Shown here: positions 2,471 to 10,856 of the stretch, piece by piece
Position numbering within the stretch: the stretch's first letter is position 1
Layout: each line of letters opens with the position of its first letter
Origin: Rhodobacteraceae bacterium HIMB11
GTDB lineage: Bacteria > Pseudomonadota > Alphaproteobacteria > Rhodobacterales > Rhodobacteraceae
DNA length: 64,000 bases
NCBI GenBank assembly: GCA_000472185.1
Contig: AVDB01000012.1
Span: 1-64,000, forward strand
Reading direction: 5' to 3'
Program-made: the position numbers and the translations under genes
The notes under the pieces: model-generated
The model's input: only the letters and a program-made list of their open reading frames with translations
Database searches by the model: none
What the model was told of the DNA's origin: nothing

Positions 2471-3871
2471 GTGTTCAGACGGCTAACATCGTCAGGCTTA
2501 GTCGTGGTGCGTATGTTTGCCACGCTTGTTGCGATCATTTTCACATCTCATCTTGTTTGGGCTGCACCCTATGCGGCAATGGTTATGGACGCGCGCAGTG
2601 GAAAAGTACTGCATGCTGAAAATGCAGATACACGGCTTCATCCTGCGTCACTTACAAAAATGATGACCTTGTACGTTGTGTTCGAGGCCGTTGAAAATGG
2701 CGAAATCTCTTTGGATACAAAAGTACGGATTTCCAAGAAAGCGGCCGCAGAACCTCCATCAAAACTTGGCTTACGCTCAGGCCAACGCATTAAACTGAGG
2801 TATTTGATCCGCGCAGCCGCCGTGAAATCGGCAAATGACGCAGCCACAGCATTGGGTGAGGCGATTGAAGGATCAGAGGCAGCCTTTGCTCGGCGTATGA
2901 ACCGCACGGCCAAGGCACTTGGGATGAAACGAACAACGTTTAAAAATGCGCATGGACTTACCGAAAAGGGGCATCTCTCCACCGCGCGTGATATGACCAT
3001 CCTTGGGCGTCATTTGTTTTATGATTATCCCGATTACTACAATTTATTCTCGCGCATCCGCACACATGCAGGACTGCGAGAGGTTGCAAATACCAACCGC
3101 CGATTTTTGGGAAATTACCGCGGCGCTGATGGGATCAAAACGGGATATACCCGCGCTGCTGGTTTCAATCTTGTTGCCTCGGCTGAACGGGGTCAAGAGC
3201 GCATTATTACAACCGTTTTTGGTGGGCGTTCCACAGCAACACGGAACAAACGCGTTGCGCAGTTGATGGACAAAGGGTTCAAATTGGCGCCAAGCCGCGT
3301 AGCCGTTCAAAAACCTGCGCGCCCTGACTATTCTATTACCTCGACGGACACGGGTTCGCGACTTGCTGGGAAAACGGTACGTGTCAAAACAAACCGCCCG
3401 TACAGTCCACGCCCAAAACTACGCCCCACTGCGAACATTCAACTTGCGACCACCGATCTTAAAAGCGGGATCGAAAGTGCACTAAGCGAGGCGCAAAATG
3501 TACGTATTGAAGTCGATCGATCGACCACAGAACAGGCAACGCCGATATCGGTGAATATTGCGACCATCGATACAACCAGCGCAATCGCAGAAAGTTTGGG
3601 GCCAACGGTTGTTAGTAGATTATCGACATCAAATGGCGGTCATTGGGGGATCAATGTTGGACGCTTTAATACACGATATGCGGCTGAAAAAATGCTGTTG
3701 AAAACGGCCCTTGCCGAAATTGATGCACTCGACGGATCCTTGCGCAAAGTGCACCAAAGCAGACAAGGATTTGAAGCAACATTCCTGGGGCTAAGCGAAG
3801 CGCGCGCGCTGCAGGCCTGCACACGGCTAAGCGCTCGCAATATCAAATGCTCGACGATTTCGCCGGGTTAG
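2471..3871 (+). CDS. D-alanyl-D-alanine carboxypeptidase with C-terminal SPOR domain
   Basis: A 466-residue periplasmic penicillin-binding protein of the DacC/DacF family that trims the terminal D-Ala of peptidoglycan stem peptides. It starts at a GTG preceded by an AAGGAA ribosome-binding site. A signal peptide covers roughly residues 1-31. All three serine-transferase motifs are present: SLTK at 60-63 (nucleophile Ser60), SAN at 120-122 and KTG at 223-225. A linker of about 100 residues leads to a SPOR peptidoglycan-binding domain at about 390-465, a common architecture in Rhodobacterales. Its last bases overlap the restored frame of the ccoS remnant on the other strand. Confidence 0.92.
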   Translation: MFRRLTSSGLVVVRMFATLVAIIFTSHLVWAAPYAAMVMDARSGKVLHAENADTRLHPASLTKMMTLYVVFEAVENGEISLDTKVRISKKAAAEPPSKLGLRSGQRIKLRYLIRAAAVKSANDAATALGEAIEGSEAAFARRMNRTAKALGMKRTTFKNAHGLTEKGHLSTARDMTILGRHLFYDYPDYYNLFSRIRTHAGLREVANTNRRFLGNYRGADGIKTGYTRAAGFNLVASAERGQERIITTVFGGRSTATRNKRVAQLMDKGFKLAPSRVAVQKPARPDYSITSTDTGSRLAGKTVRVKTNRPYSPRPKLRPTANIQLATTDLKSGIESALSEAQNVRIEVDRSTTEQATPISVNIATIDTTSAIAESLGPTVVSRLSTSNGGHWGINVGRFNTRYAAEKMLLKTALAEIDALDGSLRKVHQSRQGFEATFLGLSEARALQACTRLSARNIKCSTISPG

Positions 3872-4021
3872 GTTTTGGATTTTGATCCCAGGTTCCTGAT
3901 AAAATACGCTCGGCGTTTCCAGCAGGATCGTCGTATTGCAGGGTACGTAGAACAAGAATGCGCCCAAACCAACACTGCCGAAGAAAAGCGAGATGGGTAT
4001 CAGAAATAGTAGTATATCCAT
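3843..4021 (-). pseudogene. ccoS: ccoS remnant (cbb3 oxidase assembly protein), frameshifted
   Basis: The N-terminal frame starts MDILLFLIPISLFF, the hydrophobic start typical of CcoS, a small membrane protein needed for cbb3-type cytochrome oxidase assembly. After about 24 residues this frame turns to nonsense. A neighbouring frame then continues with LRTLQYDDPAGNAERIL, which is the conserved CcoS segment after the membrane helix, and ends at 3843. One single-base indel near 3945-3955 therefore separates the two halves. The ATG overlaps the TAA of the ccoI remnant (TAATG), the usual ccoI-ccoS arrangement. Family identity is confident; loss of function follows from the frameshift. Confidence 0.85.
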
Positions 4022-4416
4022 TAACGTATCCTTAGTGCGTTCAGCGTGACACTGATGGACGATAGCGACATTGCCAAAGCCGCAATCAGGGGCGTGGCAA
4101 ATCCTGCAATCGCGATTGGTACCGCAATTACGTTATAAAACGTTGCGATCCGAAAATTCTACGTAATGCGCTTTTGTGATGCTTTTGCCAATGGGATTAA
4201 ACCGACCAGTTGGTCAAGGTTTTCACCCAAAAACACAATGTCCGACGCGCTGCGTCCAGTGCGCTGGATGGAGAAATCGAAACATGCGCCTCACAGTGTG
4301 CTGCAGTGTCGTTCAAACCGTCACCAATCATGAGGACGCGTTGGCCATCCGCCTTTAATGCGCGCAGCCGAATATATTTCTCGACAGGTGTCACAGCTGC
4401 GGAATAGTTTAAAATA
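4021..4416 (-). pseudogene. ccoI: ccoI/fixI remnant (C-terminal piece of copper P-type ATPase)
   Basis: Only the last quarter of a CcoI-type copper ATPase remains. It begins near VTPVEKYIRLRALK, runs through the hinge motif VLMIGDGLNDTAA and reaches SALDAAR. There the frame shifts by one base (near 4250); the next frame continues SDIVFLGENLDQLVGLIPLAKASQ. An in-frame TAG sits at 4159-4161. The last transmembrane segments ([20 protein letters not shown]...) follow, ending LNALRIR-stop. The metal-binding N-terminus, phosphorylation DKTG motif and most membrane helices are absent. The upstream edge, near 4416, abuts a hemN fragment on the opposite strand. Confidence 0.88.
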
Positions 4417-5192
4417 TTCAGCTAATTTACAACATCGGCGTCCACTTCCTTAACGCTGACCTTGTCTATGGTTTGCCGATGCAAACGACCGATCGGTTTG
4501 CTGAAACGCTGCAAAAACTCTTATCACCTACCCCTGATAGAATTGCGTTATTTGGGTACGCGCATGTTCCATGGATGGCCCGTCGCCAGAAAATGATTGA
4601 TCAAACGGCCCTTCCAAACCCCAAAGCGCGGTTGCGGCTTTTTCGAACGGCGCAGCATATTTTCGACGCGGATGGATATCAGTTGATTGAAATTGATCAT
4701 TTTGCTCTTCCCAATTGCTCTATGACACGTGCGTCGCAAACAGGGATGCTTTTTCGGAATTTTCAGGGGTATACAACTGACCCGTCAATGGTTTTGATTG
4801 AGGTGGGTGCATCGGCAATATCCAAATTCCCACAAGTCTACGCCCAAAATGCGCCGGGAACCGCAGAATATAGCAAATTAATAGATACAGGCGATCTGAC
4901 TACGGTTCGGGGACACGGGTTGACGGATCATGACAGATTAAACTCTGACATCATCGCCGCATTGTTATGTCAGTTTCAGGTCCGCATCTCAGATATTTGC
5001 GATAGCCACGACATACACCCAACCGCGTTGATTAATCGGTTTGAACGGGTAAACGCGCGCTTTGAAAACCTTCTGAATGTGAGCGAAGAAGGGCTTATCA
5101 TTCCACACGAAGCACGGCCATTGACCCGCATGATCGCGCGTGAATTAGATACCTATCCCTTATCAGACACAGGTCACAGTTACGCAACCTAA
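4413..5192 (+). pseudogene. hemN: hemN remnant (oxygen-independent coproporphyrinogen III dehydrogenase, N-terminus lost)
   Basis: An uninterrupted frame gives the C-terminal part of HemN, about 260 of the usual ~450 residues. Recognisable blocks are NADLVYGLP (about 4452-4478), TPDRIALFGYAHVPWM, FALPN, NFQGYTTD and the VLIEVGASAISKFPQ region, ending PLTRMIARELD. The radical-SAM cysteine motif CxxxCxC that binds the catalytic 4Fe-4S cluster lies in the missing N-terminal part, so the product cannot be active. The frame is open upstream only to a TAA at 4410-4412, where the ccoI remnant begins. The possible TTG start at 4473 is internal to the homology. The tail overlaps the end of the yejF gene by 4 nt. 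Confidence 0.88.
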
Positions 5193-6772
5193 ATCATTGC
5201 AGCATCAACCAACGCCTTGGTGTATTCCGTAGAAGGGTTCGTAAAGATTTGTTCCGCATACCCCTCTTCAATGATGTCCCCACGCTTCATCACCATCACG
5301 CGGTGGGACATGGCGCGCACAACCTTTAGATCATGACTGATAAAGATGTAGGCCAAACCATACCTGCGCTGCAAATCGCGCAACAAATCGACAATTTGAA
5401 CCTGTACCGTCATATCCAAAGCCGAGGTGGGTTCATCCAAAATAACAAGTTTGGGGCGCAACACCATAGCACGCGCGATTGCGATGCGTTGCCGCTGACC
5501 ACCCGAAAATTCGTGCGGGTAGCGATGCATCATGGCGGGGTCTAGGCCCACCTCAACCATAATATCGCGCACCTTTTGTTCGATTGCAGTATCATCCCCG
5601 ATGCGATGAACTCTTAAACCCTCGGCAATCACCTGCGCACAGGTCATACGAGGAGACAACGAGCCATAGGGGTCCTGAAAAACAATCTGCATATCTTGGC
5701 GTAAATTTCGCAACTCGCGCTTCGGAAGTTTTGCCAACAAGCGCCCATCGAATTCGGCCTGACCCTCAAACGAAATCAAACGCATCAGCGCCATCGCAAT
5801 CGTCGATTTTCCCGAACCGCTTTCACCAACAATCCCAAGAGTTTCGCCTGCACGTAATTCAAAGTTTGCCTCGTTCACGGCCTTTACATGGCCGACCGTA
5901 CGGCGCAACAATCCCCGCTGAATTGGAAACCAAATACGCATTTTATCAGCCCGCGCGACGACAGGTGCGTCCGCATCAATTGCATCAGGTGCCCCAATGG
6001 CATGTGCGGATAATAGTTTTTGCGTATAGGGGTGCTGTGGCGACGTGAACACCTTTTCAACGGTGTCATGTTCCACAATATCCCCATCTTTCATCACATA
6101 AACACGATCTGCGATTTTACGCACCACCGCCAAATCATGGGTGATGAACAACATGGCCGTGTTTTCTTTTTCTTTCAGGTCATTCAGCAAATCCAATATT
6201 TGCGCCTGAATTGTCACATCTAGGGCCGTTGTCGGTTCATCCGCGATCAGCAGTTTTGGACCATTTGCCAATGCCATCGCGATCATCACACGCTGTCGTT
6301 GTCCACCAGAAAGTTGGTGTGGATAATCAGAGAGGCGTGTTTCTGCGTCCTGAATGCCAACACGTTCAAGCAATTGCAAAATCCGCGCACGCGCAGCAGT
6401 ACCTGTGACCCCCTGATGAAGTTCCAATGACTCGCGCAACTGTTTTTCAATTGTGTGTAGCGGGTTAAGTGAGGTCATAGGTTCCTGAAAGATAAAGCTC
6501 ACCTCATTACCACGCAACTGGCGCAAAGCCCCTTCATCGTGATCCGAGATGTCCTGCCCGTTGTAGTGTGTCGTACCAGAAATCTGTGCGCTACGTCCCA
6601 ACAGTTTCATCGAGCTTAACGCCGTTACAGATTTTCCAGAGCCGCTTTCCCCAACCAAGGCAACGACTTCACCTGGGTTGATATGATAACTGACACCATT
6701 CACAACTGTCAGTGAACGACCCTCTTGGGTAAAGGCGATGCAGAGGTTTTCGACAGAAAGAACAGGCGTCAT
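5189..6772 (-). CDS. yejF: Peptide ABC transporter, duplicated ATP-binding protein YejF
   Basis: A 527-residue ATPase holding two nucleotide-binding domains in one chain. The first Walker A (GESGSGKS) is at 41-48, with signature LSGGQRQR and Walker B LLIADEPT. The second domain has [16 protein letters not shown] and LVILDEPT. Each domain ends with the oligopeptide/dipeptide transporter C-terminal extension. It powers the YejABEF importer in the inner membrane; in E. coli this takes up peptides including microcin C. Its start overlaps the stop of yejE (ATGA), so the two are translationally coupled. Confidence 0.93.
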
Positions 6773-7878
6773 TTGAATGTCTTTCTTGGATCAAATGCAT
6801 CACGCACGCCTTCAAAAATAAAGACCAACAAGGCAAGCATGACTGCAAAGGTAAAGAAGGCGGTGAACCCCAACCACGGTGCCTGCAGATTTTGTTTGGC
6901 TTGCAATGTTAATTCACCCAGTGACGGCGCAGTTGTCGGCAGGCCAAAGCCCAAGAAATCCAAACTGGCCAAACCTGCAATGGTTCCCGTCACAATAAAC
7001 GGCAGCATCGTCAACGTGGCAACCATAGCATTCGGCAACATGTGGCGGAACATAATTGTCCAATCGCGGACCCCCAATGCACGGGCAGCGCGGACGTATT
7101 CCAAATTACGGGCCCGCAAAAATTCTGCACGGACAACCCCAACGAGGCCCGTCCAACCAAATAAGATCATTAAAAAGACCAAGAGCCAGAAACTTCGCCC
7201 CAAGATCGCAAACATAATGATGATCACATATAGGGATGGAACGGCGGCCCAAATTTCGATCACACGCTGTAGGATCAAATCAGTCAAACCACCAAAAAAT
7301 CCCTGAATGGCCCCCATAATTATCCCAATGATACTGGATAGGGTAGTGACCAAAATTGTAAACAATATGGATAATCTGAACCCATAAATTACGCGCGCCA
7401 AAACGTCCCGCTTGGTATCATCTGTCCCCAACAAATTTTGAGAATTTGGGGGCAGCGGCGCAGCACCGGGGCGATCAACAGGCGTGTTGTAGGAATATGG
7501 GATCAACGGCCACATTAACCAACCCTGTTCAAAATCAGCCCCTGAATAAGAACCTGCGGAAATTTCATCCATAATTTCATACGGGATGTCGAAACAATCG
7601 ATTGCGCCGCCCGATTTGATTAAACATTGAACCTCGGGGTCGCGATAAACCGCCTCTGTTTTGAAATCCCCGCCAAAGCGTGTTTCGGGATAAAAGTTGA
7701 AGATTGGCGTAAAAAGCTCACCCCGATACTTCACCAAAATGGGTTTATCATTGGCAATAAATTCTGCGCAGAGGGAAATCGCGAAAAGGACACCGAAAAT
7801 AATCAATGACCAAAATGCGCGTCCATTGGCACGGAAATTTTTCCAGCGGCGTTGGTTTAGTGGCGATAGTTTTATCAT
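6769..7878 (-). CDS. yejE: Peptide ABC transporter permease YejE
   Basis: A 369-residue inner-membrane permease of the OppC/DppC class. An N-terminal membrane helix is followed by the long periplasmic insertion characteristic of YejE (about residues 45-145). Then come the five-helix core and the EAA-loop region around [20 protein letters not shown]. It pairs with YejB to form the channel. The start overlaps the yejB stop by 4 nt and the stop overlaps the yejF start by 4 nt. Confidence 0.93.
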
Positions 7879-8957
7879 CCCTCACGCCCTTCAAAATCGA
7901 TACGTGGGTCCACAAAGACGTACATCAAATCCGATAATATCCCGATCACAAGGCCCATAAGCCCAAAGATGAACAACGTGCCAAAAATTACGGGATAGTC
8001 GCGAGCGACAGCCGCCTCAAATCCAAGACGCCCTAAGCCATCCAGAGAAAAGATGGTTTCTATAATCAAACTTGCCCCAAAGAACACGCCAACAAAAACT
8101 GCTGGGAATCCAGCAATCACAATCAACATCGCATTTCGGAAAATATGGCCATAGAGTACACGCGATTCACTTAACCCCTTGGCCTTAGCGGTCATCACAT
8201 ATTGCTTTTGGATCTCATCCAAAAAGCTGTTTTTCGTCAAAAGCGTAAGCGTTGCAAACCCAGATATCGTCGAGGCAATAACGGGTAATGCGATATGCCA
8301 GAAGTAATCCGCAATTTTACCGATCAGTGACAATTCAGCAAAGTTATCCGAATAAAGCCCTCGAAGCGGAAAGATTTGATAGTACGATCCACCTGCGAAC
8401 AAGACCAAAAGGATGATTGCGAACAAGAACCCTGGGATGGCATAGGCCATAATGATGATACCACTGCTCCATGTATCGAACCGCGTTCCATCATTTACGG
8501 CCTTGCGAATACCCAACGGGATCGACACAAGATAGGCAATCAGCGTCGACCACAGCCCCAATGAAATGGAAACGGGCATTTTTTCCAAAACCAAATCAAT
8601 TACGCTGATTGAGCGGAAATAGCTTTCTCCAAAATCAAGTCGTATGTAGTTCCACATCATATCCAGAAACCGTTCAAGCGGTGGTTTATCGAAACCAAAC
8701 TCTTTCTCAAGTTCCGCTATGAATTCGGGTGGAAGCCCGCGCGCGCCTACATAATCCGTGTTTCCCGAACTATTGTCAGCGGTTTCAGAACCGCCGCCCG
8801 ATATTGCCTCGAACACGTCACCTTCGCCTTCTAAATTAGCAAGGATCTGCTCAATCGGCCCACCAGGGACAAATTGAACCAAGGCAAAGTTGATTACCAT
8901 GATCCCCAGAAGCGTCGGGATAACCAGCAAAAGCCGGCGAAGAATGTAGGCGCCCAT
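7875..8957 (-). CDS. yejB: Peptide ABC transporter permease YejB
   Basis: A 360-residue permease of the OppB/DppB class. The N-terminus [19 protein letters not shown] is the typical first helix. A periplasmic segment and five further membrane helices follow, and the EAA loop lies near [20 protein letters not shown]. It starts only 3 nt after the stop of yejA, so all four genes form one operon in the order yejA-yejB-yejE-yejF. Confidence 0.93.
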
Positions 8958-8960
8958 TGC

Positions 8961-10856
8961 TTACCTCAAAACGCCTTTGGCCTTAAGGTCGGCGGCTTTT
9001 TCGGCATTGTACCACCAGAAATCAAGATTACCCAATGCGAATGGCGGCAGTGTTTCAGGATGTTCGTACATGTTCCAATAGGCCACGCGATAGGTGTTGT
9101 TGAACCACTGAGGCACCCAGAAGTAATAAGCCCGCAAAGTACGATCCAATGCCTTGACCGACGTGGCCAAGTCCGCTTTATTTTGGGCATTCACAACATT
9201 TTCGATCAGCGCATCAACCGCCTCTGACTTTAGCCCCATCGAGTTAAACACAGACTGATCCGCAGTTTCCGATCCAAAATATTGCTTCAATCCTGATGAG
9301 GGTTCCAGCGACATTGGGAACTGATCAACCATCATATCGAAATCATAGTTGCGTGATCGGTCTGTCATCTGCGCAGGGTCGATGCGTGAATATATTGCAT
9401 CAATTCCTGCTGCTTTAAGGTTATCGATGAATGGCAGATGTACGCGGTCGAAAGTGGGGCTATCCTCGATAATTTCGATTATCAGCGTTTCACCCGCTGC
9501 ATTTCGGCGCAATCCATCATCCCCAACAGTCCAACCTGCTTCGTCCAACAGTGCGCTTGCCTTACGTAGGTTTTTACGATCCAACGTACGGTCTCCGGAA
9601 ACAGGGGCCATGACGGCCTCGCCATCAATCACACCTGCGGGCAAAAGGTCCGCGATGGGTTCCAACAGAGCAAGTTCCGCATCTGATGGCATGCCTTCGG
9701 CTGACAATTCAGAGTTTTCCCAGAATGAATTGATCCGCGCATACTGACCATAAAATAGCGATTCATTGGACCACTCAAAATTAAACAGCAATCCGACCGC
9801 CTGACGTACACGGATATCGTCAAATTTGTCGCGACGTAGATTCATTACATAGCTTTGGCCAGTCGCCATACCACCATCGGGCAGAAGCGTTTTAATTACA
9901 TGTCCTTCGTCAAGCGCAGGAAAATCATATGCAGTTGCCCATGATTTTGACGAGTTCTCTTGTCTGAACGTGTAAGCACCTGATTTGAAACCTTCAAACG
10001 CTGCGTTGGAATCCGCAAAATACTCAATGCGAATTGTGTCAAAGTTTCCGCGCCCTTTGTTGAATGGCAAATCCTTGCCCCAATAGTCAGGATTGCGTTT
10101 GTACGTGATGCGTTTGTTGATGTCATAGCTGTCTAATACATATGGACCTGAACCGATTGCCGGCTCCATCCGTGATTCGTCTAGCTTTGCGCCAGTCTTT
10201 TCAAACCACGTCTTGCTTTTCACAGGGAGGCCGCCAACGATTGGAATCGCATCACGGCGCGACGCGTCATCGGCAAACGAATATTTGATACGATGCGGCC
10301 CCAAGATTTCTACACCGGTGACGATCTGGCCCAGGATTGCACGATAACTGGCCAATCCTTCCTTCAGGAATAATTCATAGGTGAAGGCCACATCTTCAGC
10401 TGTCACTGGTGAGCCATCTGAAAAACGTGCCTCTGGGCGCATGTTGAAGATGACCCATGATTGATCCTCTGGATATTCCAAGGTTTCCGCCAAAAGACCA
10501 TAGCTCGTTCCCACTTCATCTGACGTGCCTTCAAGAAGTGATTCGAATGGCGCAGACGCCAGGGCGCCCGCGCGTCCCTTACGTGTATAGGGATTGAAAC
10601 TATCAAAGGTTCCCATCGTCCAGATAGAAATTTCACCGCCCTTTGGCGCGTCGGGGTTCACATAATCAAGGTGTTTGTAATCCGCTGGATATTTCAATTC
10701 GCCAAAGAAATTGAAACCATGTGTTTTGGTAATCGCTTCATCCGCGCGCAGGGACATTGCACCAAAAATAACCGCAAGCCCAATTGCAGATCCAACAAAA
10801 AAATTACGCAGTTTTGATGTGTCGACGTCTTTCGCCTGTACCCTTGATTTTGTCAT
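8961..10856 (-). CDS. yejA: Periplasmic peptide-binding protein YejA of the ABC importer
   Basis: A 631-residue extracellular solute-binding protein family 5 member that delivers peptides to YejBEF. Residues 1-40 contain a basic start and a hydrophobic stretch (FFVGSAIGLAVIFGAM) ending at LRADEA, a likely signal peptide. The family core with the PxxxWVIFNMRPEARFSDG block and the GSGPYVL motif is intact. The start has a strong ribosome-binding site (GGAGGAAGG). It is the first gene of the operon. Confidence 0.92.
   Translation of the reverse strand: MTKSRVQAKDVDTSKLRNFFVGSAIGLAVIFGAMSLRADEAITKTHGFNFFGELKYPADYKHLDYVNPDAPKGGEISIWTMGTFDSFNPYTRKGRAGALASAPFESLLEGTSDEVGTSYGLLAETLEYPEDQSWVIFNMRPEARFSDGSPVTAEDVAFTYELFLKEGLASYRAILGQIVTGVEILGPHRIKYSFADDASRRDAIPIVGGLPVKSKTWFEKTGAKLDESRMEPAIGSGPYVLDSYDINKRITYKRNPDYWGKDLPFNKGRGNFDTIRIEYFADSNAAFEGFKSGAYTFRQENSSKSWATAYDFPALDEGHVIKTLLPDGGMATGQSYVMNLRRDKFDDIRVRQAVGLLFNFEWSNESLFYGQYARINSFWENSELSAEGMPSDAELALLEPIADLLPAGVIDGEAVMAPVSGDRTLDRKNLRKASALLDEAGWTVGDDGLRRNAAGETLIIEIIEDSPTFDRVHLPFIDNLKAAGIDAIYSRIDPAQMTDRSRNYDFDMMVDQFPMSLEPSSGLKQYFGSETADQSVFNSMGLKSEAVDALIENVVNAQNKADLATSVKALDRTLRAYYFWVPQWFNNTYRVAYWNMYEHPETLPPFALGNLDFWWYNAEKAADLKAKGVLR

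Follow-up and report, generated by a model that had tools for sequence, protein, structure and literature searches.

Decaying remnants of a low-oxygen gene island between dac and yejF in Rhodobacteraceae bacterium HIMB11

The window analyzed in this study, a stretch of 64,000 nucleotides from contig AVDB01000012.1 of Rhodobacteraceae bacterium HIMB11 (GenBank assembly GCA_000472185.1; genome G000), contains broken pieces of ccoS, ccoI, and hemN between two intact genes. Bacteria that live in well-oxygenated water are set apart from relatives in low-oxygen niches by having lost the high-affinity oxidase. The locus raises the question of what once stood here, by which events it was lost, and whether it was lost more than once. 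A reading of the letters alone, hereafter the sequence-only reading, had proposed a single large deletion followed by drift of the remaining ends.

Gene remnants and the missing island

The left flank is dac, the gene of a D-alanyl-D-alanine carboxypeptidase with a C-terminal SPOR-like region (positions 2471 to 3871, plus strand; Pfam PF00768, E value of 1.1e-65), and the right flank is the gene of a YejF-type peptide ABC transporter ATPase (5189 to 6772, minus strand; 61 to 70% identity to relatives). Both genes are intact and convergent, and dac has an omega of about 0.06 between congeners. The ccoS remnant (3843 to 4021, minus strand) matches TIGR00847 over its first 23 residues (E value of 1.5e-5), and a four-genome alignment with translation placed a frameshifting 4-bp deletion near position 3960, relative to the intact ccoS of the congener G003. 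With its broken frame and a score of 24.5 bits, it falls short of the cutoff of 28.35 for a functional CcoS. The convergent genes dac and ccoS share 29 bp at their 3' ends (3843 to 3871), so that the end of dac should have been under partial constraint from both for as long as ccoS existed. The C-terminal end of ccoI (4021 to 4421, minus strand; TIGR01494/TIGR01525), encoding a copper P-type ATPase, overlaps ccoS in the sequence TAATG and has lost its upstream part. About 130 last codons are left, which align with the CcoI C terminus of relatives, retain a P-type ATPase match (E value of 6.5e-9) with a clear GDGLND motif, and carry both an in-frame TAG on the minus strand (4159 to 4161) and, by comparison with G003, a 7-bp deletion near 4250.

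On the plus strand follows the C-terminal half of hemN, the gene of the oxygen-independent coproporphyrinogen III dehydrogenase (4422 to 5192). It includes an open frame of 239 amino acids (4473 to 5192) that matches positions 212 to 441 of the 454 positions of TIGR00538 (E value of 3.9e-50); read from position 4407, the match covers positions 190 to 441 and includes one TAA. The radical-SAM half of this profile is absent from the window remnant, whose score of 171 bits over positions 212 to 441 lies far below the cutoff of 324.95 for a functional HemN. The sequence-only reading had described all three remnants in these terms, i.e., ccoS with one frameshift, the last part of ccoI with a frameshift near 4250 and a TAG, and a hemN fragment on the other strand without its radical-SAM part, and the profile matches and alignments bear this description out. 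The body of ccoI thus meets the body of hemN at a deletion junction that the homology limits of both remnants resolve to about 4408 to 4437: CcoI-like residues extend to about 4421 on the minus strand, and hemN can be recognized with certainty from 4437 onward and plausibly from about 4422. The earlier estimate of 4413 to 4416 lies inside this range.

An intact island with the same flanks is found in Sulfitobacter (locus L132 joined to L076), Roseobacter (L133 and L077), and Halocynthiibacter (L134 and L088), in agreement with the proposed clustering of ccoNOQP-GHIS, fnrL, and hemN. The three loci L132, L133, and L134 carry clpS and dac followed by ccoS and ccoI, and L076 continues with ccoH, ccoG, ccoP/Q/O/N, usp, fnrL, hemN, and yejF, so that the full order in relatives is dac> <ccoS <ccoI <ccoH <ccoG <ccoPQON usp> <fnrL hemN> <yejF. 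Like these islands, the locus in the window has clpS-dac and yejF-yejE as flanks, and its surviving pieces show the same order and orientations; unlike them, it lacks an interior of about 9.8 kb, its island ends contain frameshifts and a stop codon, and its congeners have undergone further deletions. The size of the missing part follows from the distance between the stop codons of dac and yejF, which is about 11.1 kb in L132 plus L076, with islands of similar size in the other two relatives, and 1.32 kb in the window. Given the gene order of the relatives, one deletion from ccoI to hemN removes exactly the genes that the sequence-only reading had listed (ccoNOPQ, ccoG, ccoH, most of ccoI, fnrL, and the start of hemN) and additionally usp. 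No mobile-element gene was seen between dac and yejF; any homology at the junction itself would be legible only in the predeletion sequence of the window lineage or in a close intact relative.

The hemN gene adjoins or lies near yejF in nearly all island-bearing loci that were compared. The spacing of their stop codons is about 1.2 to 1.4 kb in L042, L043, L061, and many Rhodobacter- or Defluviimonas-like loci and about 2.2 kb in Ruegeria, which indicates that in those loci the island is bordered on its right side by one or more extra genes. In Dinoroseobacter shibae, FnrL activates the cbb3 operon and hemN (PMC5398030), and the genes of the island are hence linked functionally as well as physically.

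The genome of HIMB11 (3.10 Mb, 99.85% complete) was searched with family models and protein comparisons, and the predicted absence of ccoN, fnrL, and intact hemN elsewhere proved correct. Neither ccoN nor fnrL has a match anywhere in this genome, the only hemN matches are the window remnant and a second, HemW-like one, and a cytochrome bd is missing as well. Retained are one COX1-type oxidase and an intact HemF, the latter being present in all four genomes of the genus. These absences would confine the cell to respiration by a single low-affinity COX1-type oxidase and to oxygen-dependent heme synthesis via HemF, and low oxygen should accordingly not be exploitable. Overall, broken homologues occupy the place of intact genes in relatives, in the same order, and intact copies of ccoN, fnrL, and hemN are missing from the rest of the genome; the segment is very probably a decaying deletion scar of a low-oxygen island whose function has disappeared from this genome.

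Scars in sister species and the timing of the loss

The genus sample comprises HIMB11 and the three congeners G001, G002, and G003, which are represented by fragmented draft assemblies and share about 93% DNA identity at the locus. All three carry dac, broken remnants, and yejF in the same order as the window, and ccoN is absent from all four genomes. The extent of the remnants differs. G001 lacks the equivalent of 3979 to 4843, G002 lacks 3917 to 4037 as well as about 4245 to 4436, and G003 lacks 4310 to 4955. The sequence-only reading had seen no repeat at the junction, a remark that has to be amended for the genus, since short direct repeats mark some of the secondary deletions in the congeners: CGCCCAAA at 3961 and 4841 in G001 and TTCAGCG at the ends of the first deletion in G002, whose second deletion may be marked by GCGTCC (4252 and 4438). 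The small disabling changes are private to single species (the TAG and two frameshifts of the window, an internal TAA in the hemN fragment of G002, and a ccoI stop in G003), and alignment plus translation revealed none that is shared between species.

Substitution rates were estimated from small samples (66 to 250 codons) and from species pairs that are not independent. For all remnants of HIMB11 and G002 together, the maximum likelihood omega is 0.42 (0.30 to 0.56), and an omega of 1 is rejected (likelihood ratio statistic of 16.7); the value is 0.33 to 0.56 in five of the six species pairs and 0.79 in the sixth. The flanking genes have values of 0.05 to 0.11, and intact hemN in other species pairs has 0.03 to 0.07. 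Constraint on the remnants is clearly relaxed, yet it was not lacking over the whole period. Of 87 hemN differences, 41 fall on third codon positions, where neutrality predicts a share of 0.333 (P = 0.005); base-composition bias was rejected as the source, as four-fold sites predict the same third-position share of 0.333 for hemN. In the ccoI piece, 12 to 15 differences contrast with 30 to 33 expected under neutrality from four-fold sites (Poisson P values of 1e-4 to 8e-4). Within the limits of these small samples, the values speak against purely neutral drift since before the species split, and hemN and ccoI were probably still under selection after the divergence of the species had begun.

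The scars admit several histories. An error of assembly or sequencing that joined two unrelated ends is scarcely credible: although only a single assembly has precisely this junction, three other assemblies contain truncated ccoS/ccoI beside truncated hemN between the same flanks, which excludes a mistake confined to the window, and ccoN and fnrL are missing genome-wide. It is very improbable, too, that the 239-amino-acid frame represents a retained working protein. The frame is free of stops in the window species, its omega is below 1, and no indel separates it from G002 over 750 bp, but the fragment of G002, 83% identical to that of the window, is interrupted by its TAA, only residues 107 to 239 are left in G001 and 161 to 239 in G003, the radical-SAM half is gone, and omega is 5 to 10 times that of intact hemN. 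The truncations, the TAA, and the raised omega led us to reject this frame as a retained gene.

The remaining histories differ in the number and timing of the losses. Codon-level constraint that persisted after the split of the four species indicates a recent and possibly parallel loss, and on balance we favor the view that the function disappeared after the split had begun, so that several lineages would have lost the locus in parallel, as happened repeatedly in other parts of the family. Two observations speak against such parallel loss, as all four species keep only the edges of the island, at most 540 bp from dac and at most 780 bp from yejF, and the hemN-side ends in HIMB11 and G002 lie within about 20 bp of each other, as would be expected from one shared ancestral deletion. 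The corresponding alternative, in which a single deletion in the common ancestor created the junction at 4413, neutral drift followed, and G001 to G003 later lost sequence across it, is parsimonious and agrees with the location of all deletion ends of the congeners at or inside the junction of HIMB11. We nevertheless consider it rather unlikely, since the bias among codon positions, a remnant omega of 0.3 to 0.5 with an omega of 1 rejected, and fewer than half of the neutrally expected ccoI differences all stand against it. Similar breakpoints and constraint after the split would be reconciled if one later deletion had spread among the species by homologous recombination over the flanks, e.g., via gene transfer agents, because most of the remnant sequence would then be the recipient's own; the distances between the four species differ from one gene to another, which is compatible with recombination. 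This history appears improbable, given that the sequence next to the junction is no more alike between HIMB11 and G002 than the remainder and that remnants and flanks have diverged to an equal extent at synonymous sites. Of the original proposal of one deletion and subsequent drift, the deletion is consistent with the gene order of the relatives, whereas plain drift is insecure in view of the codon-level constraint after the split.

Most probably, an island of about 11 kb (ccoNOQP-GHIS, usp, fnrL, and hemN) was once located between dac and yejF and lost its core to a deletion of about 9.8 kb with one end in ccoI and the other in hemN. The stubs are still decaying, both by small frameshifts and by additional deletions, of which some occurred at short direct repeats. 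The genus shows the loss midway, and the differing amounts of stub in its four species allow dating, a reading of the mechanism, and a test for repeated loss.

Loss of the island across the family

Across 200 genomes drawn evenly from the family, ccoN exceeds the cutoff in 175 and hemN in 161, and 17 genomes have no ccoN match. Intact hemN is also missing in 16 of these 17 (Fisher P = 3e-12); the single exception, G033, carries fnrL and intact hemN on its yejF contig (L154). Clean losses of the island occur in at least six other genera, represented by six of the 17 genomes without ccoN (G035, G090, G093, G185, G190, and G235), in which the stop codon of dac lies 3 to 229 bp from that of yejF. 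Like the window genus, these genomes have lost ccoN and intact hemN, and dac faces yejF; unlike it, they have no recognizable remnants, none having been detected in the six dac-yejF gaps. In G151, G079, and G174, no more than about 1.3 kb separates dac from yejF, and the sole match of G174 to the ccoN model is weak. The gaps of the respective loci (L144, L155, and L152) measure 0.76 to 1.23 kb and consist of sequence unlike the island, as if inserted or replaced.

A partial loss is represented by Rhodobacteraceae bacterium GH2-2 (L066, positions 4254 to 10720), where usp comes directly after clpS and dac, the cco genes being absent from this place, and a small gene, a PhzF-like gene, fnrL, intact hemN, and yejF complete the order. 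This arrangement suggests that the cbb3 genes can be lost first while fnrL and hemN stay.

In a tree of YejF plus YejE, the losses are scattered, and the presence or absence of the island requires at least five changes of state. The tree groups the window genus with G235 and G185, for which parsimony would read one shared loss; we consider the loss in the window genus to be separate, because its remnants look too young. Tentatively, the interval between dac and yejF may be regarded as a site of recurrent deletion where the low-oxygen module disappears in its entirety. Such losses would have happened independently in many genera, and in parallel even among four sister species, with a repeated narrowing of the respiratory niche. 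The side-by-side position of the genes suggests why the oxidase, its regulator FnrL, and anaerobic heme synthesis have been lost together.

Comparison with known losses of cbb3 oxidase

The loss of cbb3 oxidase in pelagic roseobacters has already been published. According to the sections considered here, six pelagic Roseobacter clusters lack cbb3, with the exception of two deep TCR species (PMC12661815), fnrL adjoins the cbb3 operon in the CHUG group, and oxygen affinity differs measurably between CHUG lineages that carry the cbb3-fnrL operon and those that lack it (PMC9426536). A half-eroded scar or the position between dac and yejF is not described in the same sections of PMC9426536 and PMC12661815, and the current study adds this fossil, the precise genes on either side of it, and the evidence for repeated loss of the locus as a unit. 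The CHUG group and the pelagic Roseobacter clusters resemble HIMB11 in being related bacteria without the high-affinity oxidase (PMC9426536 and PMC12661815, as far as these sections extend). The locus is a case of ordinary gene loss that is unusually well preserved.
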